A stretch of DNA of 64,000 bases. It comes from Chryseobacterium sp. Leaf180 (GTDB taxonomy: Bacteria > Bacteroidota > Bacteroidia > Flavobacteriales > Weeksellaceae). A model generated the notes under the pieces. The model saw nothing but the letters and a program-made list of their open reading frames with translations. It was not told the origin of the DNA and searched no databases. Shown here piece by piece: positions 2,051 through 11,997 of the stretch (positions are counted from its first letter, which is position 1; each line of letters starts with the position of its first letter). The DNA is taken from NCBI RefSeq assembly GCF_001424585.1, contig NZ_LMPJ01000001.1, positions 1,180,450 through 1,244,449 on the forward strand, written 5' to 3'. The position numbers and the translations under genes were made by a program.

Positions 2051-2302
2051 CAGTAAACAGCCACCCGCGATCAGTAAATAGCCTTGCGCAGGTTAGAATT
2101 CCGCACCGGAGGTCAGTAATCTAGCAGCGGCGGGTAGAAATCAGACACCGTCGGTCAGTAATCTTGCTATGGCGGGTAGTAATCTCGCTTTGGCAAGTAG
2201 TGATCTCGTTCTGGAAAGTAGTGATCTTACTTTGGCGGACGGTGATCTTGCTCTGGCGGGTAGTGATCTTGCTCCGGCAGGTAGTGATCTTGTGATAGAA
2301 AT
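2051..2302. repeat. Degenerate 21-bp tandem repeat, 12 units
   Basis: Twelve consecutive 21-base units fit without indels, beginning at 2051, 2072, 2093, 2114, 2135, 2156, 2177, 2198, 2219, 2240, 2261 and 2282. The units from 2156 on are most alike (typical form TAGTGATCTTGCTCTGGCGGG), while the first five are more diverged. Because 21 is divisible by three, the frame stays open from 2097 to 2375 and reads as a heptapeptide repeat (AGSDLAL-like). The only ATG, at 2169, lies in the middle of the array. No protein family was recognised and it is unclear whether it is translated. Confidence 0.85.
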
Positions 2303-2574
2303 TATGTTAAAAAATGTTAAAGAAAAGCATCTCCCGCCGTTTCCGGTGCCGCTGTCATGTGTTGCCCTACTTTAATTGTAAATTACAGAGCATACAGTGC
2401 AGTCCAACGCTTTTGAGTTAATATATAATCCACATCACTGTTTCAATCATCTAAAACATTTATCCACCCTTTAGGGCCGGAGAAGAGAAAAATGTTTTTA
2501 TTTCTAATCCACACAAAGCCGGAACAGTACTGTTTCGAAGGTCGGGAATAAAATGACGGTACATAAAGAATCAG

Positions 2575-7024: not shown

Positions 7025-7048
7025 AAGCCACGCGGTGATGGCGTGGCT
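7025..7048 (-). terminator. Rho-independent terminator of the small membrane-protein cluster
   Basis: AGCCACGC at 7026-7033 pairs with GCGTGGCT at 7041-7048. On the minus strand the stem is followed by a run of Ts (7019-7026 read in reverse). It lies about 20 bases beyond the apparent end of the last small reading frame at 7069 and would close the operon 8716-7069. Confidence 0.65.
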
Positions 7049-7068
7049 GTTGTTTGGCTTTGATCTTT

Positions 7069-7219
7069 TTATGTATAAAGTAAAGTAAGCAGTTTGCTTC
7101 TGGAAGTGTACATGTGATAATATATTGTGGCAATAATCATTTCATCTGAAACATGATCATCCAAAACAGATACTTGTAAACCATTTCCTTTCTTCCAGTT
7201 TTACAGTAAGGTTTTTCAT
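7069..7219 (-). pseudogene. Possible small protein gene with a frameshift
   Basis: An ATG at 7219 opens a frame that stops after 20 codons (ending TSICFG). The neighbouring frame then runs open to a TAA at 7069-7071 and reads like a protein end (VLDDHVSDEMIIATIYYHMY and further to LLTLLYT). Removing one base in the purine run GAAGAAAGGAAATGG (about 7177-7191) would join the two into about 49 residues. It sits 41 bases after the 74-residue protein gene and just before a terminator, as expected for a last operon gene. This may be a decayed gene, a sequence error, or chance. Confidence 0.3.
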
Positions 7220-7260
7220 AAGTACTTTTGTATAAAATATTTACATGATGATCTGTATGA

Positions 7261-7485
7261 TTAGGAAGGGCTGTTTGAGTTTTTCATGAATTTACCCAAC
7301 TGCACAATAAGACCTGCGATAAGACCGCCGAAAAAAATTCCCCAGCAGATCGATTTGATGACAAATTCTCTGGTTTCAGTATCATCTTCTGTATGGAGCA
7401 TTGCAAAAACTGAAGAATCGAAAAATCTGAACAGGGCGATCGCGATGACAGCAACCGGAATAATGATGGGTAATTTATCTTTCAT
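7261..7485 (-). CDS. Small two-span membrane protein (family A)
   Basis: 74 residues with two hydrophobic segments (about 5-25 and 48-64) separated by an acidic loop (HTEDDTETRE). Not recognised as a named family. It resembles its upstream neighbour (7475-7672): both have KLxI..P, then LFxFF, an acid/Thr loop with DT, and S...G.FF before the second span. Its start overlaps the end of that neighbour by 11 bases, so the pair is probably translationally coupled. Confidence 0.65.
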   Translation of the reverse strand: MKDKLPIIIPVAVIAIALFRFFDSSVFAMLHTEDDTETREFVIKSICWGIFFGGLIAGLIVQLGKFMKNSNSPS

Positions 7486-7672
7486 TCTGGTGGGTTTTAA
7501 CGGTTTTTTTACGCGTCAGGAAATAAAACATCACGAAATAAAACAGTCCGGAAAAGACACTTCGGAGAATGTTTTTCGTGATGGTGTCTCCTTCCGAAGG
7601 CAGAAAGAAATTGAATAAAAACAGCACCAGCATAAAGATGGGCGTCATGATCAGGAGTTTTTTGTATGGCAT
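7475..7672 (-). CDS. Small two-span membrane protein (family A)
   Basis: 65 residues: a basic start (MPYKK), hydrophobic segment at about 6-24, loop LPSEGDTITKN, second span at about 38-52 and a basic tail (RKKTVKTHQNER), suggesting both ends face the cytoplasm. Function unknown. It is similar to the 74-residue protein with which it overlaps and lies 13 bases after the broken family-B reading frame 7686-7933. It is probably the fourth gene of one transcript. Confidence 0.65.
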   Translation of the reverse strand: MPYKKLLIMTPIFMLVLFLFNFFLPSEGDTITKNILRSVFSGLFYFVMFYFLTRKKTVKTHQNER

Positions 7673-7685
7673 AATGTAATAAATG

Positions 7686-7933
7686 TTAGTTTAAATGGGA
7701 GTTGGTTTCCTGTTTTTTCTTTTTCAAAAGCATCACGTTTCGGTAAATATTTACAGATAGCAAAAGAATCAAAAATAGATTCAGCCAGTGATAATGAAAT
7801 GCAAAATTCCTGAGTTGAAAATCATCATCAAAAAAGTGGGTGGATGCCAGCAATAGGTACGCTAAACCGAGCGTGTACAGTAGGAGTGTAGTGTACAGAT
7901 AAGTCTGGAGGTGTACAGTTTAAGAAGATTCAT
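7686..7933 (-). pseudogene. Frameshifted two-span membrane protein (family B)
   Basis: A frame open from 7919 down to the stop at 7686-7688 encodes a protein tail with no ATG in a suitable place. It aligns well with the neighbouring 79-residue protein: LY...L....LG....LL..T.F....F...N..F.....NLFL.LL and a shared LLKKK end. The missing N-terminus is found in the next frame from the ATG at 7933 (MNLLKLYTSRL, compare MIPAQLLTSKI in the neighbour). One base appears lost at roughly 7890-7905. Restoring it would give a protein of about 80 residues with two spans. It could be a true pseudogene, phase-variable, or a sequencing error. Confidence 0.6.
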
Positions 7934-7964
7934 TGCGGTCTGTTTAGTAATAACAGTTTCTTTC

Positions 7965-8204
7965 TTAGGAGACTTTCTCTGTATTCTTTTTTTTCAGAAG
8001 AGTTGAAACATGAAAGATCTGAAGCGTAAAAAGCAACATCAGAAAAAGATTTGTCCGGCGGAATGTAAATTCTATGTTTTCGAAGGCGAAGTTTTCCTTA
8101 TAAAAATTGGTCATACCGAGAAGCACTGAAAGAATGCCCAAGGGAAGGATACACAGACCGCTGTAAAGAAAAATTTTCGAGGTAAGTAATTGCGCGGGAA
8201 TCAT
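7965..8204 (-). CDS. Small two-span membrane protein (family B)
   Basis: 79 residues with spans at about 10-30 and 49-66, an intervening loop MTNFYKENFAFENIEFTF and a basic C-terminus (LLKKKNTEK). No named family was recognised. The loop pattern TN-x5-F-x2-(E/R)N-x-x-F recurs in the frameshifted neighbour and twice in the 161-residue protein upstream (TNIFEGAFINREF and TNLIEEDFTFRNF), so all four units appear related. It starts 26 bases after that gene on the same strand. Role unknown; probably an inner-membrane protein. Confidence 0.7.
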   Translation of the reverse strand: MIPAQLLTSKIFLYSGLCILPLGILSVLLGMTNFYKENFAFENIEFTFRRTNLFLMLLFTLQIFHVSTLLKKKNTEKVS

Positions 8205-8230
8205 AATTTCTGATATTTTCAGGGTGGCGT

Positions 8231-8716
8231 TTAAGAAATATTTTTCCGTGTTCTGAAGTAATTGATGTTGATGCGGATCACGGCAACGGTCGCAAAAAAC
8301 CAGATAAATGAGTACACTAGGTTGTTTTGCACATGGAAATTTCTGAATGTAAAATCTTCTTCAATGAGATTGGTAATACTGAGAATAAATGCAGCAAACG
8401 AAATCAGATAAATAATTGAAAATAAGAGCCATTGCGAAGTTGAGGGATTTTGCATCCAATGTACCGGTTTTGTAGTTTGGTCACCTTTTTTCTGTCTGTA
8501 ATTTCTCGAAATACTCAGAATGGCTCCGGTGGAAGAAGCGATAAGCAACATGATAAGTGGATTAAGGTGAATCTCAAATTCGCGGTTGATAAAGGCACCT
8601 TCAAAAATATTGGTCATGCTGGCCGTGAGCATCAGAATCGCAGCACCGTACAGAATCAGCATGAGGTTGTACTGCGTGCGAGTCGGATTGAGATAGAAGT
8701 TTTGTTTTGGGGTCAT
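8231..8716 (-). CDS. Four-span membrane protein made of two family-B units
   Basis: 161 residues. Two similar halves are visible: about 17-80 (span, TNIFEGAFINREF loop, span, basic RNYRQKK) and about 92-157 (span, TNLIEEDFTFRNF loop, span, basic YFRTRK). Each half corresponds to one of the 79-residue proteins encoded just downstream, so it looks like a tandem duplication and fusion. It is the first gene of the small cluster and has a TACATTTG promoter box and an inverted repeat directly upstream. No domain of known function was recognised. Confidence 0.75.
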   Translation of the reverse strand: MTPKQNFYLNPTRTQYNLMLILYGAAILMLTASMTNIFEGAFINREFEIHLNPLIMLLIASSTGAILSISRNYRQKKGDQTTKPVHWMQNPSTSQWLLFSIIYLISFAAFILSITNLIEEDFTFRNFHVQNNLVYSFIWFFATVAVIRININYFRTRKNIS

Positions 8717-8730
8717 AGGTTATTTTTTGG

Positions 8731-8767
8731 CAAATGTAAAGGTATTATCTGAAATATTAAATACCTT
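8731..8767 (-). promoter_or_regulatory. Promoter box and inverted repeat before the small-protein operon
   Basis: CAAATGTA at 8731-8738 reads TACATTTG on the minus strand, fitting the TAnnTTTG -7 box, 15 bases before the start at 8716. Immediately upstream, AAGGTATT (8739-8746) and AATACCTT (8760-8767) form a perfect 8-bp inverted repeat with a 13-base spacer, covering the place where the -33 element would lie. No TTG was found there. An activator or repressor site is plausible. Confidence 0.45.
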
Positions 8768-8807
8768 AAATGGTGAATTTTTTAAGATTTAGTATGTGAT
8801 GTTTTTT

Positions 8808-8886
8808 GTAAGCACAGCAGCCTGGTGCACGCATTGATCGGATTACGATCTCATCTAAATCCATGCAAAGGCTGCTCAAAGCTTAC
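8808..8886. other. Nested 79-nt inverted structure, possible structured RNA or palindromic element
   Basis: Four helices stack in order: GTAAGC (8808-8813) with GCTTAC (8881-8886); AGCAGCC (8816-8822) with GGCTGCT (8870-8876); GCAT (8831-8834) with ATGC (8863-8866); GATCG (8836-8840) with CGATC (8846-8850) around a GATTA loop. All pairs are Watson-Crick. Neither strand has a U tract after the stem, so it is not a normal terminator. The D-arm-like look is superficial: the helix lengths do not fit a tRNA. It lies between the 52-residue protein gene and the promoter of the small membrane-protein operon. Confidence 0.6.
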
Positions 8887-8897
8887 ATTCTCACACC

Positions 8898-9056
8898 TTA
8901 CGATCTGAAGTAAATCATACTGGTGATGAGATATCCCGAGCTGGCAACAAGACTGCCGAGACTGACAACAGACGGAAGATCCCAGATTTCATTATAATAA
9001 TGAGTAAAGCTTACCGCGGAGGCGTGAATGGCCAGAAGACTGATGATGTGTTTCAT
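8898..9056 (-). CDS. Small membrane protein, 52 residues
   Basis: An open frame with an upstream ATG at 9134 exists, but the ATG at 9056 gives a more sensible protein: a basic start and hydrophobic segment (MKHIISLLAIHASAV), a polar middle (THYYNEIWDLP) and a second hydrophobic segment (SVVSLGSLVASSGYLITSMI). No family recognised and no clear promoter. Its short length makes the call uncertain. Confidence 0.45.
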   Translation of the reverse strand: MKHIISLLAIHASAVSFTHYYNEIWDLPSVVSLGSLVASSGYLITSMIYFRS

Positions 9057-9186: not shown

Positions 9187-10374
9187 TTATTCAATGAGAT
9201 GCCCATCTTCCATGACAGAAACTGTAATTTTATCTGTACGTAAAGTTGGTTTTAAGTTGTTAATATTTGTTTCAATCTTTAAATTTGACCAATCCTTTGT
9301 GGAATTTAATAAAGATTGCATTTCACAAATATTCTGAGGCGTAATAGATTGATTATTGACCTTTAAGATTTCATCACCCACTTTAAAAGCATTTTTATTG
9401 TCTTTAAAAGTTGAAAGATTTACTATTAATTTTCCACCTTGATTTACAGCCAGGTAATTGATATTTTTGAAACGTGCGCTATTACTTATATTTTCTTTGG
9501 TATTTTGTTTGACGTAAACTTTTCTATTTTTTTTGTCAATAATCCAATTAAAGTTTTTGATAAATTGTATTCCAAGTATATTAGAATGTGTATTTTCATA
9601 ATACATTATATCGCTTGAGACAGTAATATTCTTATTTAACTGTATAGTATTTTTATTTTTTATTAGTTGTTTTGCTTTTTGAAGCCCGGTTGATGTGAAG
9701 TATGTAAATTCTATCATAGAATCGTATTTCTCTTCCTTTATATCTTTCATCATTATTGAAACATCAGCACCTGAATCGAAAAGAAAGCGTTCTTTTTTTC
9801 CATTTACAAGCAAATCAACGAAAATGAGTTTTGCAATTAGTCCCTTATAGGATGAAGTAACCTCAGAATATTCTGGAAAGTTTTTTCTGTCAAAATTTTC
9901 GATTAGTTTAATATTCTGATTTTTATAGTCTAATAGAAAAGGAAGTTTTGTGTCGAAATAAGTTTCTAACCCCAGCACCCCTTTTAAGGCGCTCACTTCG
10001 CATTTATTTAATTCATTTATTGACGGTGCAGAATTTAAAACTCTATATTCTGTTTTAGTTATTGATGTATTAAAAGTTTTAGCTCTTAGCCGATCTATTA
10101 CAAGACTCTCATTGAAAGCTGAGCCGATTTTCATTTTTCCCATTAGCTCTAATCCGTGATTATTGTCAGATTGAAAAATACTGCTGAAATAAGCTCCTGT
10201 GTCGAATAAAAATTTTTGTTTATCCCCGTTTATAACAACTTCAACGTATTGATTATCCACCAGCTTATCAATTTTTGAAATATCTGCAGAATTACGTTCT
10301 TGAATGTAGCCTGGATATTTTTCTTGAGCATTTAAAATGTTTGCTATTAAAAAAATAATTATTGCTTTCTTCAT
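9187..10374 (-). CDS. Exported two-lobed aspartic protease with PDZ-like domain
   Basis: 395 residues. A signal peptide (MKKAIIIFLIANILNAQ) precedes two retropepsin-like units, each with the catalytic motif after a hydrophobic strand: FLFDTGA (Asp at 58) and FLFDSGAD (Asp at 200). The C-terminal part (about 310-370) has PDZ features: a glycine-containing carboxylate-binding-type stretch and the strand GDEILKVNNQSITP. The family (retropepsin-like aspartyl proteases of Bacteroidota) is expected to cleave peptides in the periplasm or at the surface; both halves keep a D-T/S-G motif so an intramolecular two-lobed active site is possible. Substrate unknown. A small barrel-like protein gene lies just upstream on the same strand. 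Confidence 0.8.
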   Translation of the reverse strand: MKKAIIIFLIANILNAQEKYPGYIQERNSADISKIDKLVDNQYVEVVINGDKQKFLFDTGAYFSSIFQSDNNHGLELMGKMKIGSAFNESLVIDRLRAKTFNTSITKTEYRVLNSAPSINELNKCEVSALKGVLGLETYFDTKLPFLLDYKNQNIKLIENFDRKNFPEYSEVTSSYKGLIAKLIFVDLLVNGKKERFLFDSGADVSIMMKDIKEEKYDSMIEFTYFTSTGLQKAKQLIKNKNTIQLNKNITVSSDIMYYENTHSNILGIQFIKNFNWIIDKKNRKVYVKQNTKENISNSARFKNINYLAVNQGGKLIVNLSTFKDNKNAFKVGDEILKVNNQSITPQNICEMQSLLNSTKDWSNLKIETNINNLKPTLRTDKITVSVMEDGHLIE

Positions 10375-10449: not shown

Positions 10450-10893
10450 TTAAAAATTGTATCTGTAGTAAACGTTCATTGCTGTAGAAGTAAAATCTTT
10501 ATTGAAATTATTAGAAATTTTGAAACCTGTGGAACTGTTTTTTCTAATCCGTATTCCTAGATTGGCTCCTAATTGAAAATTGAAAGATGCACTGCCCCCA
10601 TAAAAGGCAACTCCAAATCCTGAAAAAGCTGATACTTTTAATAATTTATTTGATTTATTTTCTAAGCCAAAAGCGACATTTGAAATATTCAAACTGACAG
10701 AATTGGGCTCCGAATATATATTGTTTACTTCAATAAAATAATTTTGCTTTATTTTATAACCAAGAGCCAGATCAAGATTGAAGTTTGAAATTTTTTTATG
10801 TGCAAGCACACCAGCGCCAACAGAGGCATAAATTTTATCCTGCGAAAAACAAAAGGTGGATAGTAATAGTAAGGGTAGAAAAAAGTTTTTCAT
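10450..10893 (-). CDS. Small outer-membrane beta-barrel-like protein
   Basis: 147 residues with a signal peptide (MKNFFLPLLLLSTFCFS, cut before QDK) followed by alternating hydrophobic strands separated by short turns (YASVGAGVLAHKK, LDLALGYKIKQNYFIEVN, AFGLENKSNKLL, FGVAFYGGSASF, MNVYYRYNF), ending in Phe as outer-membrane barrel proteins often do. No named family was recognised. The aspartic protease gene starts 75 bases downstream on the same strand and may be co-transcribed. A -7-like box TAGTTTTG lies at 10936-10943. Confidence 0.6.
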   Translation of the reverse strand: MKNFFLPLLLLSTFCFSQDKIYASVGAGVLAHKKISNFNLDLALGYKIKQNYFIEVNNIYSEPNSVSLNISNVAFGLENKSNKLLKVSAFSGFGVAFYGGSASFNFQLGANLGIRIRKNSSTGFKISNNFNKDFTSTAMNVYYRYNF

Positions 10894-11238
10894 GAATCTT
10901 TGGTTTTGTTATTATTTTTTGTATTAATTATTCAACAAAACTATGATTGCGGTGGGTAACACTTGTTACACTATAAGGTAGTTTTTTATAGCATCGCTAT
11001 ATCCAATAGAAAATAAATTGAAAGAAACATATCATTATTTACTATATAAATTCTGATGAAAGTGTTGTCTGTAATTGGTGTGAGTTGTTGAATTTCAATA
11101 GAATTTCTACTTCATTAAAACTTCTTATTTAATTGCGATTCAGAAATATCCCATCTGTTTGACGTCCAAATTCCCTTTTTACGTAGATTTGATTAAATTT
11201 AAAAAACTACACAAAAGTGTAGTTGTAATTTGATACAG
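10894..11238. promoter_or_regulatory. Divergent control region between barrel gene and LuxR gene
   Basis: For the rightward gene, TTG at 11159-11161 and TAGATTTG at 11184-11191 are 22 bases apart, a good -33/-7 pair. A perfect inverted repeat AACTACAC-AAAA-GTGTAGTT occupies 11205-11224, just after the expected start of transcription. For the leftward gene, TAGTTTTG (minus strand) lies at 10936-10943, with the palindrome GTAAC-ACTT-GTTAC at 10956-10969 near its -33 position. Confidence 0.55.
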
Positions 11239-11997
11239 ATGGAAAAATTTAACAGTTTCTTTTCAGACAAAAATACCATTGCAGACATTACGGATAAGGA
11301 TATAGCACAGACCGAAAATTATCTGGAAGTAGTAAGAACATTCGCTAAGCTTACCTATCAAAGTGTTTATATCATCGACTATTATCAAAGAAATTTTGAA
11401 TATGTTTCAGATAATCCGCTTTTTCTGTGTGGGTTGTCATCAAAACAGGTGCAGGAACTTGGATATGACTTTTATTTTCAGCATGTTGGTGAACAGGATT
11501 TGAATTTACTTCTGAAAATTAATCAAGTTGGGTTTGATTTTTTTGATAATCTACCTGTGAAAGAGAGAAAGGATTATACAATCTCATACGATTTTCATAT
11601 AATCAACGAAAAGAAGAACTCGATTTTAATCAATCATAAACTGACACCACTTTTTTTAAACGAAGAAGGAAAAATCTGGAAAGCGATGTGTATAGTTTCA
11701 TTAAGCCCGAATGACGCTTCCGGAAATATAACAATCTCGAAAGTAAATTCAACCTCTATAGCAGAGTTTAACCTGGGAAATAACCGATGGGAAACAACAG
11801 AAAAAGTAAAATTATCTGAAAGAGAAATACAAATATTGATTCTCTATGCAAGAGGTTTAACTATAAATGAAATTGCTGACAAAATTTTTATCTCGCCTGA
11901 TACCGTAAAATTTCACCGCAGAAAATTGTTTGAAAAAATGGATGTAAGTAATATCACTGAGGCTTTATCTTACGCTAAAAATAAAAAACTTATTTAG
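11239..11997 (+). CDS. LuxR-type transcriptional regulator with PAS-like sensor
   Basis: 252 residues from the ATG at 11239; a frame-compatible TTG at 11230 is less likely. The C-terminus (about 190-250) is a clear GerE/LuxR helix-turn-helix: LSEREIQILILYARGLTINEIADKIF followed by ISPDTVKFHRRKLFEKM. The first 150 residues look like a PAS-type fold (YIIDYYQRNFEYVSDNP, FLCGLS), common in Chryseobacterium regulators of this size. It probably senses an unknown signal and binds DNA as a dimer. The inverted repeat just upstream of its start could be its own operator. Neighbours are a protease/barrel pair transcribed divergently and an META-type lipoprotein gene. Confidence 0.85.
   Translation: MEKFNSFFSDKNTIADITDKDIAQTENYLEVVRTFAKLTYQSVYIIDYYQRNFEYVSDNPLFLCGLSSKQVQELGYDFYFQHVGEQDLNLLLKINQVGFDFFDNLPVKERKDYTISYDFHIINEKKNSILINHKLTPLFLNEEGKIWKAMCIVSLSPNDASGNITISKVNSTSIAEFNLGNNRWETTEKVKLSEREIQILILYARGLTINEIADKIFISPDTVKFHRRKLFEKMDVSNITEALSYAKNKKLI

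Follow-up and report, generated by a model that had tools for sequence, protein, structure and literature searches.

A stretch of 64,000 nucleotides (nt) from Chryseobacterium sp. Leaf180 (contig NZ_LMPJ01000001.1, forward-strand positions 1,180,450 to 1,244,449), referred to here as the window, carries on its minus strand a row of tiny hairpin membrane proteins, A1-A2-A3-B1-B2 (window positions 8716-7261), which belongs to a real and organised island that is missed by the public family libraries. The hairpin families are new, and the architecture is of a known kind. By analogy with published systems, the cluster might be an array of inner-membrane immunity proteins, which in the window stands without a recognised effector; we propose this reading tentatively and consider its chance to be somewhat short of even. 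Homologs of the window proteins are clustered in a similar way in other genomes, which argues that the array is more than a chance arrangement. The original prediction, which was made from the DNA sequence of the window, had described a densely packed set of tiny two-span membrane proteins encoded on one strand, and this description agrees with the frames found here, whose spacing is close to the predicted one.

The hairpin array and its families

The first protein of the array, A1 (8231..8716, minus strand as for all genes of the array), has 161 amino acids (aa) and is a fused double hairpin of family A: the loop motif TN-x5-F is present twice, hydropathy gives four spans, and both halves match the family A profile, of which they are themselves rows. 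An AlphaFold2 (AF2) model of A1 contains four helices and is of modest confidence (mean predicted local distance difference test score (pLDDT) of 68.4), and a fold search with this model returned nothing with an E value below 0.001. A2 (7965..8204), a 79-aa hairpin assigned to family A by profile match and hydropathy, follows after 26 nt, and the frame of a third family A copy, A3 (7686..7919), begins another 45 nt downstream. A3 is an open frame without a usable start codon, which opens just past the stop codon at 7922-7920 and contains its first TTG at 7853. Since no ATG, GTG or TTG precedes the first span and the nearby ATG at 7933 lies in a different frame, this copy is probably frame-broken; its match to the family A profile contains an internal stop. 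B1 (7475..7672; 65 aa; family B1) starts 13 nt after A3 and overlaps by 11 nt with B2 (7261..7485; 74 aa), a hairpin of family B2 with the pattern RFF.SSVF ... KS..WGIFFG, which matches the B2 profile, one of whose rows it is, with an E value of 6.6e-33.

The topology of these proteins was read from hydropathy and charge only; on this basis, A2, B1 and B2 are predicted to have two spans and a basic C end. All eight hairpin proteins whose charge was measured have a net basic C end, and the loop between the spans is net acidic in five and neutral in two of the seven that possess one. Most hairpins, including those of relatives, are around 52 to 80 aa long, A1 being double.

In agreement with the claim that the products match no known family, none of the window hairpins had a match above the curated thresholds of Pfam, NCBIfam, PADLOC or PHROGs. 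For the window hairpins tested against PHROGs and PADLOC, nothing fell under an E value of 0.09, and PADLOC returned no family for A1, A2, B1, B2 and C (A3 was left out). Names that appeared below threshold, among them DUF6404, DUF6168, Oxidored_q2 and DUF2070, were dropped as hydrophobic-pattern noise. The original division into two small families proved too coarse, because the relatives show C, B1 and B2 to behave as families of their own: the window alone contains A, B1, B2 and C, and the relatives add B3, D and E, the last of which is a longer form similar to C. Hairpin D of locus L058 scores 19.5 bits against the Pfam family PLDc_N (PF13396) and thus stays below its threshold of 23.3 bits; D of locus L010 gave no match.

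Distribution, conservation and turnover of the island

Profile searches revealed strong matches to family A in 6 and to C in 8 of 173 genomes of the genus, and B2 matched strongly in 12 of the family's 320 genomes, every one of which belongs to Chryseobacterium. Outside the genus, two single-copy relatives of family A are present among 296 genomes of the order (G339 and G384). The families occur together more often than expected by chance, with p values of 2.8e-5 for A and C, 1.9e-4 for A and B2, and 7.6e-9 for B2 and C, in a calculation that ignores the kinship of the genomes. Weak matches were dropped before counting; these comprised G005 and G073, family A matches in three genomes (E 0.003-0.009), C matches in four genomes (5e-4 to 0.009), and for B2 a fragment in G206 and the match in G220. 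Matches to the A profile in four-span proteins of loci L106 and L107 (E 3e-4), which we take to be DUF4293-like, and in a two-span protein of L180 and L186 (E of about 5e-5 to 8e-5) were likewise dropped as hydrophobic-pattern noise.

Twenty hairpin loci were annotated, some of which are cut by contig ends. Twelve of them carry a divergent AraC-type regulator gene (L010, L012, L052-L056, L058, L081-L084) and three a divergent LuxR-type one (the window, L010 and L057), with L010 carrying both types. No regulator was seen at six loci, five of which lie near contig ends (L059-L062 and L085), the sixth being a lone A gene (L011). Each locus contains 2 to 8 hairpin genes, with the families in shuffled combinations. 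A search for the cluster and its order in other genomes had been proposed as a check, and clustering as well as the presence of a divergent regulator are conserved; the gene order, however, is not fixed but shuffles between loci.

For pairs of proteins with more than 50% identity, the ratio of non-synonymous to synonymous substitution rates (dN/dS) is mostly in the range of 0.1 to 0.46 for A, B1, B2, B3, C and OMP, a neighbouring gene described below. The extremes are 0.07 and 0.59, the latter coming from two near-identical copies, and in some pairs the silent sites are saturated. The exclusion of pairs below 50% identity removed every pair with the A and B proteins of the window, and C and OMP of the window are included. 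The comparable relatives are thus under purifying selection and the proteins are real; neither the absence of relatives nor a lack of translation, which had been named as grounds for giving up the idea of one system, was found. Broken copies stand beside intact ones in the window (A3) and at two other loci (one A copy each in L052 and L055), which, if sequencing errors are not the cause, indicates a birth and death of paralogs. Genes that look transposase-like by eye are located near L012, L053 and L056, and L053 sits on a second contig of 220 kb. Searches by tblastn with one B2 protein against plasmids and with one A protein against plasmids and phages found no match that would indicate mobile carriage. 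Beside the hairpin genes of L053 (12140-13966; G119), a DUF6520 peptide and a MauE-domain protein are encoded.

Glycine-zipper proteins, probably exported, precede hairpins in three genomes

In three genomes (G126, G169 and G170), hairpin genes lie behind genes for proteins of about 200 aa that possess a signal peptide, as judged by eye, and a glycine-rich tail flanked by Cys residues, referred to here as glycine-zipper (GZ) proteins. The layouts are GZ-E, SP-D-B2, GZ-C and SP-F in L058, where SP denotes a signal-peptide protein, GZ-B2 and GZ-C in L060, and GZ-E and GZ-C in L062; in L058, all four signal-peptide proteins stand ahead of a hairpin. A GZ profile search of the 173 genomes of the genus found eight strong genes, all of them at hairpin loci. 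Using an automatic rule, which demands a two-span open reading frame (ORF) of 50-82 aa on the same strand within 130 nt downstream, 7 of the 8 GZ genes score, compared to a single one of the 127 genes at 14 other loci (Fisher's exact test, 4.6e-10). The only background gene that scores precedes an A relative, and the eighth GZ gene (L061) is followed by a C gene 82 nt downstream, which misses the two-span cut. No exporter ATPase of the LSGGQ type was found in the five GZ stretches.

One match to the GZ profile outside the hairpin loci is a 70-aa peptide with a double-glycine (GG) leader in G029 (L180:1492-1704), which exceeds the threshold of Pfam Bacteriocin_IIc and is a candidate class IIc bacteriocin; it is encoded near a LytTR-like response regulator (identified by eye) and two-span proteins. 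G029 was not counted as a GZ genome, and G059, where the match is a 707-aa frame, was dropped from the count.

Upstream genes, regulators and promoter elements

The unit had been assumed to start at around 8.77 kb; it extends further, since C, Prot and OMP as well as the divergent LuxR-type gene (to 11997) belong to it by conserved neighborhood. C (8898..9056, minus strand) is a short hydrophobic protein of 52 aa with the pattern YYxxxWDLPS...GSL...SGYLI, which shows one span at the hydropathy cut used and is probably a short hairpin. Prot (9187..10374, minus strand) resembles retropepsins, is probably exported and contains two D[TS]G motifs; it matches Pfam gag-asp_proteas with 35.2 bits (E 1.9e-8), above the gathering threshold of 28.2 bits, its relative in L010 stays below this threshold, and both motifs are kept in all four aligned Prot proteins (the window and three relatives). 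A PDZ-like tail of Prot is below the Pfam threshold, and PADLOC returned weak protease models only. OMP (10450..10893, minus strand) is a small, probably exported protein and perhaps an outer-membrane barrel, the match to Pfam OMP_b-brl having an E value of only 0.046. In all five loci that contain OMP (the window, L010, L052, L054 and L056), it adjoins either Prot or a TraB/TIKI-like protein (TLP), and C is near this pair in three of them.

TLP is absent from the window and was found in 15 of 316 genomes, in three of which it is located at hairpin loci. It was rejected as a core part of the island and is regarded as accessory, since 11 of the other 12 TLP loci were inspected (G252 was left out) and carry no hairpins; two weak matches to four-span proteins at TLP loci were dropped. 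The TLP of L056 scores 16.7 bits (E 0.007) against Pfam TraB_PrgY_gumN (PF01963), below the threshold of 26.8 bits, and that of L010 gave no match; a few His, Arg and Gly positions are invariant in all eight aligned members. An AF2 model of TLP (pLDDT 82.7) had no fold match in the PDB with an E value below 0.001. Relatives of Prot and TLP are also encoded side by side in another genus, where no hairpins accompany them (L101:666-2535; G286).

The LuxR-type (GerE) regulator gene (11239..11997, plus strand) is divergent from OMP-Prot-C, and its two closest relatives, with 77-80% identity, are also found at hairpin loci. Genes of this type are widespread, being present in 101 of 171 genomes at E 1e-60, and were rejected as a general marker of hairpins; hairpin loci account for only the top three of the 30 best-scoring loci. 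In this comparison, the 1.5-kb flank of the window includes Prot and OMP but no hairpin. In 29 of the 30 best-scoring loci, the regulator gene is preceded by a perfect palindrome, CTACAC-N4-GTGTAG (11207..11222 in the window), which is presumably the regulator's own operator. L010 and L057 each contain two extra imperfect boxes, 38 nt apart, ahead of the hairpin operon, the window equivalent of which is one poor box with three mismatches at 10966. The three LuxR-divergent operons with hairpins further share a composite element, TAGTGTA-N23-TAnnTTTG (10936..10973 of the window, minus strand), which occurs once each in the window, L010 and L057, always at the promoter divergent from the regulator, and which was derived from those same three promoters. 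It is found in none of the other 27 LuxR loci or 10 further loci, and a simple shuffle of two-base blocks gives an expectation of 0.01 occurrences per 64 kb. In the window, this promoter leads to OMP, Prot and C. In L057 (5830-5943; G144), the first frame behind the LuxR-divergent promoter, located before the hairpins, encodes a 37-aa peptide with a signal-peptide-like start.

The AraC-type regulator of the relatives was analysed using the L010 protein, whose HTH_18 tail exceeds the Pfam threshold and whose front resembles tetratricopeptide repeats (TPR), with all TPR matches below threshold. In all seven loci in which family A genes lie beside this regulator, a TATATTTG box begins 39-54 nt ahead of the first A start codon; no such close box was seen ahead of E (L081-L084) or of the first GZ gene (L058). 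Distant relatives of the AraC-type regulator are divergent from genes that, by eye, code for small lipoprotein-like (G015, G025, G036) or GG-leader-like peptides (G017, G020, G022) in all six genomes examined. Such a pattern agrees with regulators of exported-peptide modules and favors neither immunity nor modulation as the role of the hairpins. In L118, L120 and L121 (G017, G022 and G020, respectively), 55-57-aa peptides with a leader resembling KLSLKK..I.K...M..I.GG are followed by an exported-looking protein, with the AraC-type regulator gene divergent from them. We found no description of the cluster in Chryseobacterium or of TPR-AraC regulators associated with bacteriocins in the literature.

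The original prediction had also placed a promoter box, an inverted repeat and a terminator at the array, and all three are present. A Bacteroidetes-type -7 box, TACATTTG (8731..8738, minus strand), lies 14 nt ahead of A1. The TAnnTTTG motif alone is neither rarer nor more common than expected by chance (66 occurrences in the window compared to a mean of 69 in shuffled sequences), so that the value of this box lies in its position. It is abutted by an operator-like inverted repeat, AAGGTATT-N13-AATACCTT (8739..8767, minus strand), a pattern which occurs once in the 64 kb and in none of 100 shuffles. An intrinsic-terminator-like stem-loop with a T run (7026..7048, minus strand) is located 3' of the array. 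The A-B array in the window presumably has its own promoter and operator-like repeat. Between C and A1, a strong stem-loop (8796..8892, minus strand) is predicted, with a folding energy of -42.3 kcal/mol and a z score of -5.7 for positions 8780-8900. This element is a single copy in the genome, which led to the rejection of a dispersed repeat; it had no match in a search of the window against Rfam and is possibly a terminator or an RNA element. Elsewhere in the window (2164-2375), short tandem-repeat frames, one with the repeat WxVVILL and another with AxSDLxL, lie in an otherwise intergenic region.

Immunity and competing explanations

Gene order and shape suggest that the hairpins may act in immunity, and this reading is favored because the published parallels CdiI, CdzI and Blp are close to the hairpins. 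Each A, B or C protein would form a two-helix hairpin in the membrane, whose ends would both lie in the cytoplasm and whose short loop would face outward, and would neutralize a membrane-inserting effector of a neighbor or of kin by binding it within the membrane. Such binding has been proposed for CdiI hairpins and the ionophore toxins of contact-dependent growth inhibition (CDI). The barrel-like and the retropepsin-like proteins, the latter being replaced by TraB/TIKI-like proteins in relatives, might act in the periplasm as a second layer by degrading peptides. In the window, the LuxR-type regulator would drive OMP-Prot-C and the A-B array would be expressed from its own promoter, and in relatives, an AraC-type membrane regulator would occupy the same divergent place. 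As no effector was recognised in the window, the array would be an orphan or serve cross-immunity. The patchy distribution, the interchanging families, the broken copies and the transposase-like genes nearby suggest immunity as well, and the match of the GZ profile to the bacteriocin candidate of G029 also counts in favor of it.

Several observations weigh against this interpretation. The genome of the window has no GZ gene at E 1e-6, and no effector was found next to A, B1 or B3 at any locus. The eight GZ genes belong to only three genomes, so that they are not independent of one another, and their loci were first found through C. Furthermore, the rule is also passed by 6 of the 206 remaining long ORFs of the hairpin loci, namely two signal-peptide proteins of L058, the TLP of L010, A1 of the window and two unrelated-looking genes, so that the rule is not perfectly specific. 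Three GZ tails reach Pfam Bacteriocin_IIc only at E values of 0.024-0.53, below the threshold, two of them score better as generic glycine zippers, and the GZ proteins have a signal peptide and, by eye, no GG leader, and thus lack the features of class II bacteriocins. Since the GZ proteins fall short of the Bacteriocin_IIc threshold and a BLAST comparison with the 70-aa peptide of G029 gave nothing of note, the glycine zipper they share may be convergent. The loci that consist of a regulator and hairpins only (L081-L084) fit a sensor module equally well.

These latter loci are the reason why the strongest rival, although we regard it as unlikely, is a modulator or feedback role of the hairpins, as small proteins, in a system that senses the state of the envelope. 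In such a system, the AraC- or LuxR-type regulator would respond to peptides or to damage of the envelope, and the hairpins would tune the regulator or repair the membrane. Modulation would account for the frequent divergent regulators (AraC-type at 12 and LuxR-type at 3 of the 20 loci), the shared promoter boxes and the several loci with a regulator and three hairpins (L081-L084 and L012). However, the set of hairpins changes between loci that keep the same type of regulator, the two regulator types take each other's place, each locus has 2 to 8 hairpins, a high number for such a function, and the distant AraC-type relatives are divergent from other kinds of genes instead (6/6). It is improbable that the hairpins are accessory subunits of the retropepsin-like or TraB/TIKI-like enzymes and the barrel, which together would form a peptide-processing or secretion machine: the constant pairing of OMP with Prot or TLP, the nearby C genes and the two conserved D[TS]G motifs are in line with this idea, but Prot or TLP was seen at no more than 5 of the 20 hairpin loci, with contig ends cutting some of the remaining 15, and TLP relatives occur at 11 loci elsewhere without hairpins. 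That the hairpins themselves are toxic or pore-forming, as type I toxins, holin-like or bacteriocin-like proteins, seems very improbable to us. They are small, hydrophobic, regulated and arranged in tandem, with one A copy being a double hairpin, as might be expected of toxins; yet the tandem sets are under purifying selection, no antisense or antitoxin RNA from Rfam was found in the window, the hairpins show neither a GG leader nor a signal peptide by eye, and they sit behind exported GZ proteins where these occur. Of the functions suggested originally, a sensor, a channel modulator or a toxin-like set, a modulator of the adjacent regulator thus retains some probability, whereas gene order and topology favor immunity over toxins.

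Extending the immunity reading to all loci, one can picture an undescribed island for interbacterial antagonism, composed of exported GZ effectors, peptidases, an interchangeable pool of hairpins (A, B1, B2, B3, C/E and D) and a divergent regulator of one or the other of two unrelated types, some versions of which, including that of the window, would provide immunity only; we regard this picture as conceivable rather than probable. Annotation misses small and divergent membrane immunity proteins, and the window hairpins lie below the Pfam and NCBIfam thresholds. If the hairpins confer immunity, the combination of a divergent regulator, a hairpin array and a GZ protein would be a searchable signature of antagonism loci in Bacteroidota, and concrete effector-hairpin pairs are named here. 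If they are modulators, the island would offer a compact model for the control of a membrane-bound one-component regulator by small proteins. Under either reading, the island and not the single ORF is the unit to study.

Comparison with known systems

In the blp locus of Streptococcus pneumoniae, small membrane proteins and CAAX proteases are the immunity genes and outnumber the bacteriocins (PMC4860687). As in the island, small membrane proteins and proteases are modular, vary between strains and are controlled by one response regulator; however, blp depends on a peptide quorum system and CAAX proteases, whereas AraC- or LuxR-type regulators and retropepsin-like or TraB/TIKI-like proteins are found here (PMC4860687). 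CdzI, a small and mainly inner-membrane protein, confers immunity against the glycine-zipper bacteriocins CdzC and CdzD of Caulobacter (PMC5380434). The likeness consists in a small membrane protein that is encoded together with exported glycine-zipper proteins, and in divergent operons; CdzC and CdzD differ in having 86 and 84 aa and a type I exporter, while the GZ proteins have about 200 aa and a signal peptide (PMC5380434). The TraB-like sequence features of TLP recall the pheromone-degrading PrgY/TraB peptidases, and a removal of peptides is conceivable (PMC7117660). In contrast to these, TLP is below the Pfam threshold, has no significant fold match and is absent from the window.

In CDI systems, the immunity gene directly follows its effector gene. 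Here, B2, C and E genes directly follow a GZ gene in G126, G169 and G170, and in the window no effector was recognised. The CdiI proteins against CDI ionophores have 72-100 aa, are very hydrophobic and are predicted to fold as two-helix hairpins whose two ends face the cytoplasm, and within groups their identity is typically around 30% (PMC11630599). The proteins of the window differ from this in that B1 falls short of the published size range, A1 consists of two hairpins and C gave a single span. Moreover, the hairpins are encoded in tandem, no CdiA or CdiB was recognised by eye, and the candidate effectors, where such are seen, are the exported GZ proteins with their length of about 200 aa. 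The likeness is one of size and predicted topology: like CdiI, the hairpins described here are small, hydrophobic, highly divergent and predicted to consist of two helices with cytoplasmic ends (PMC11630599).

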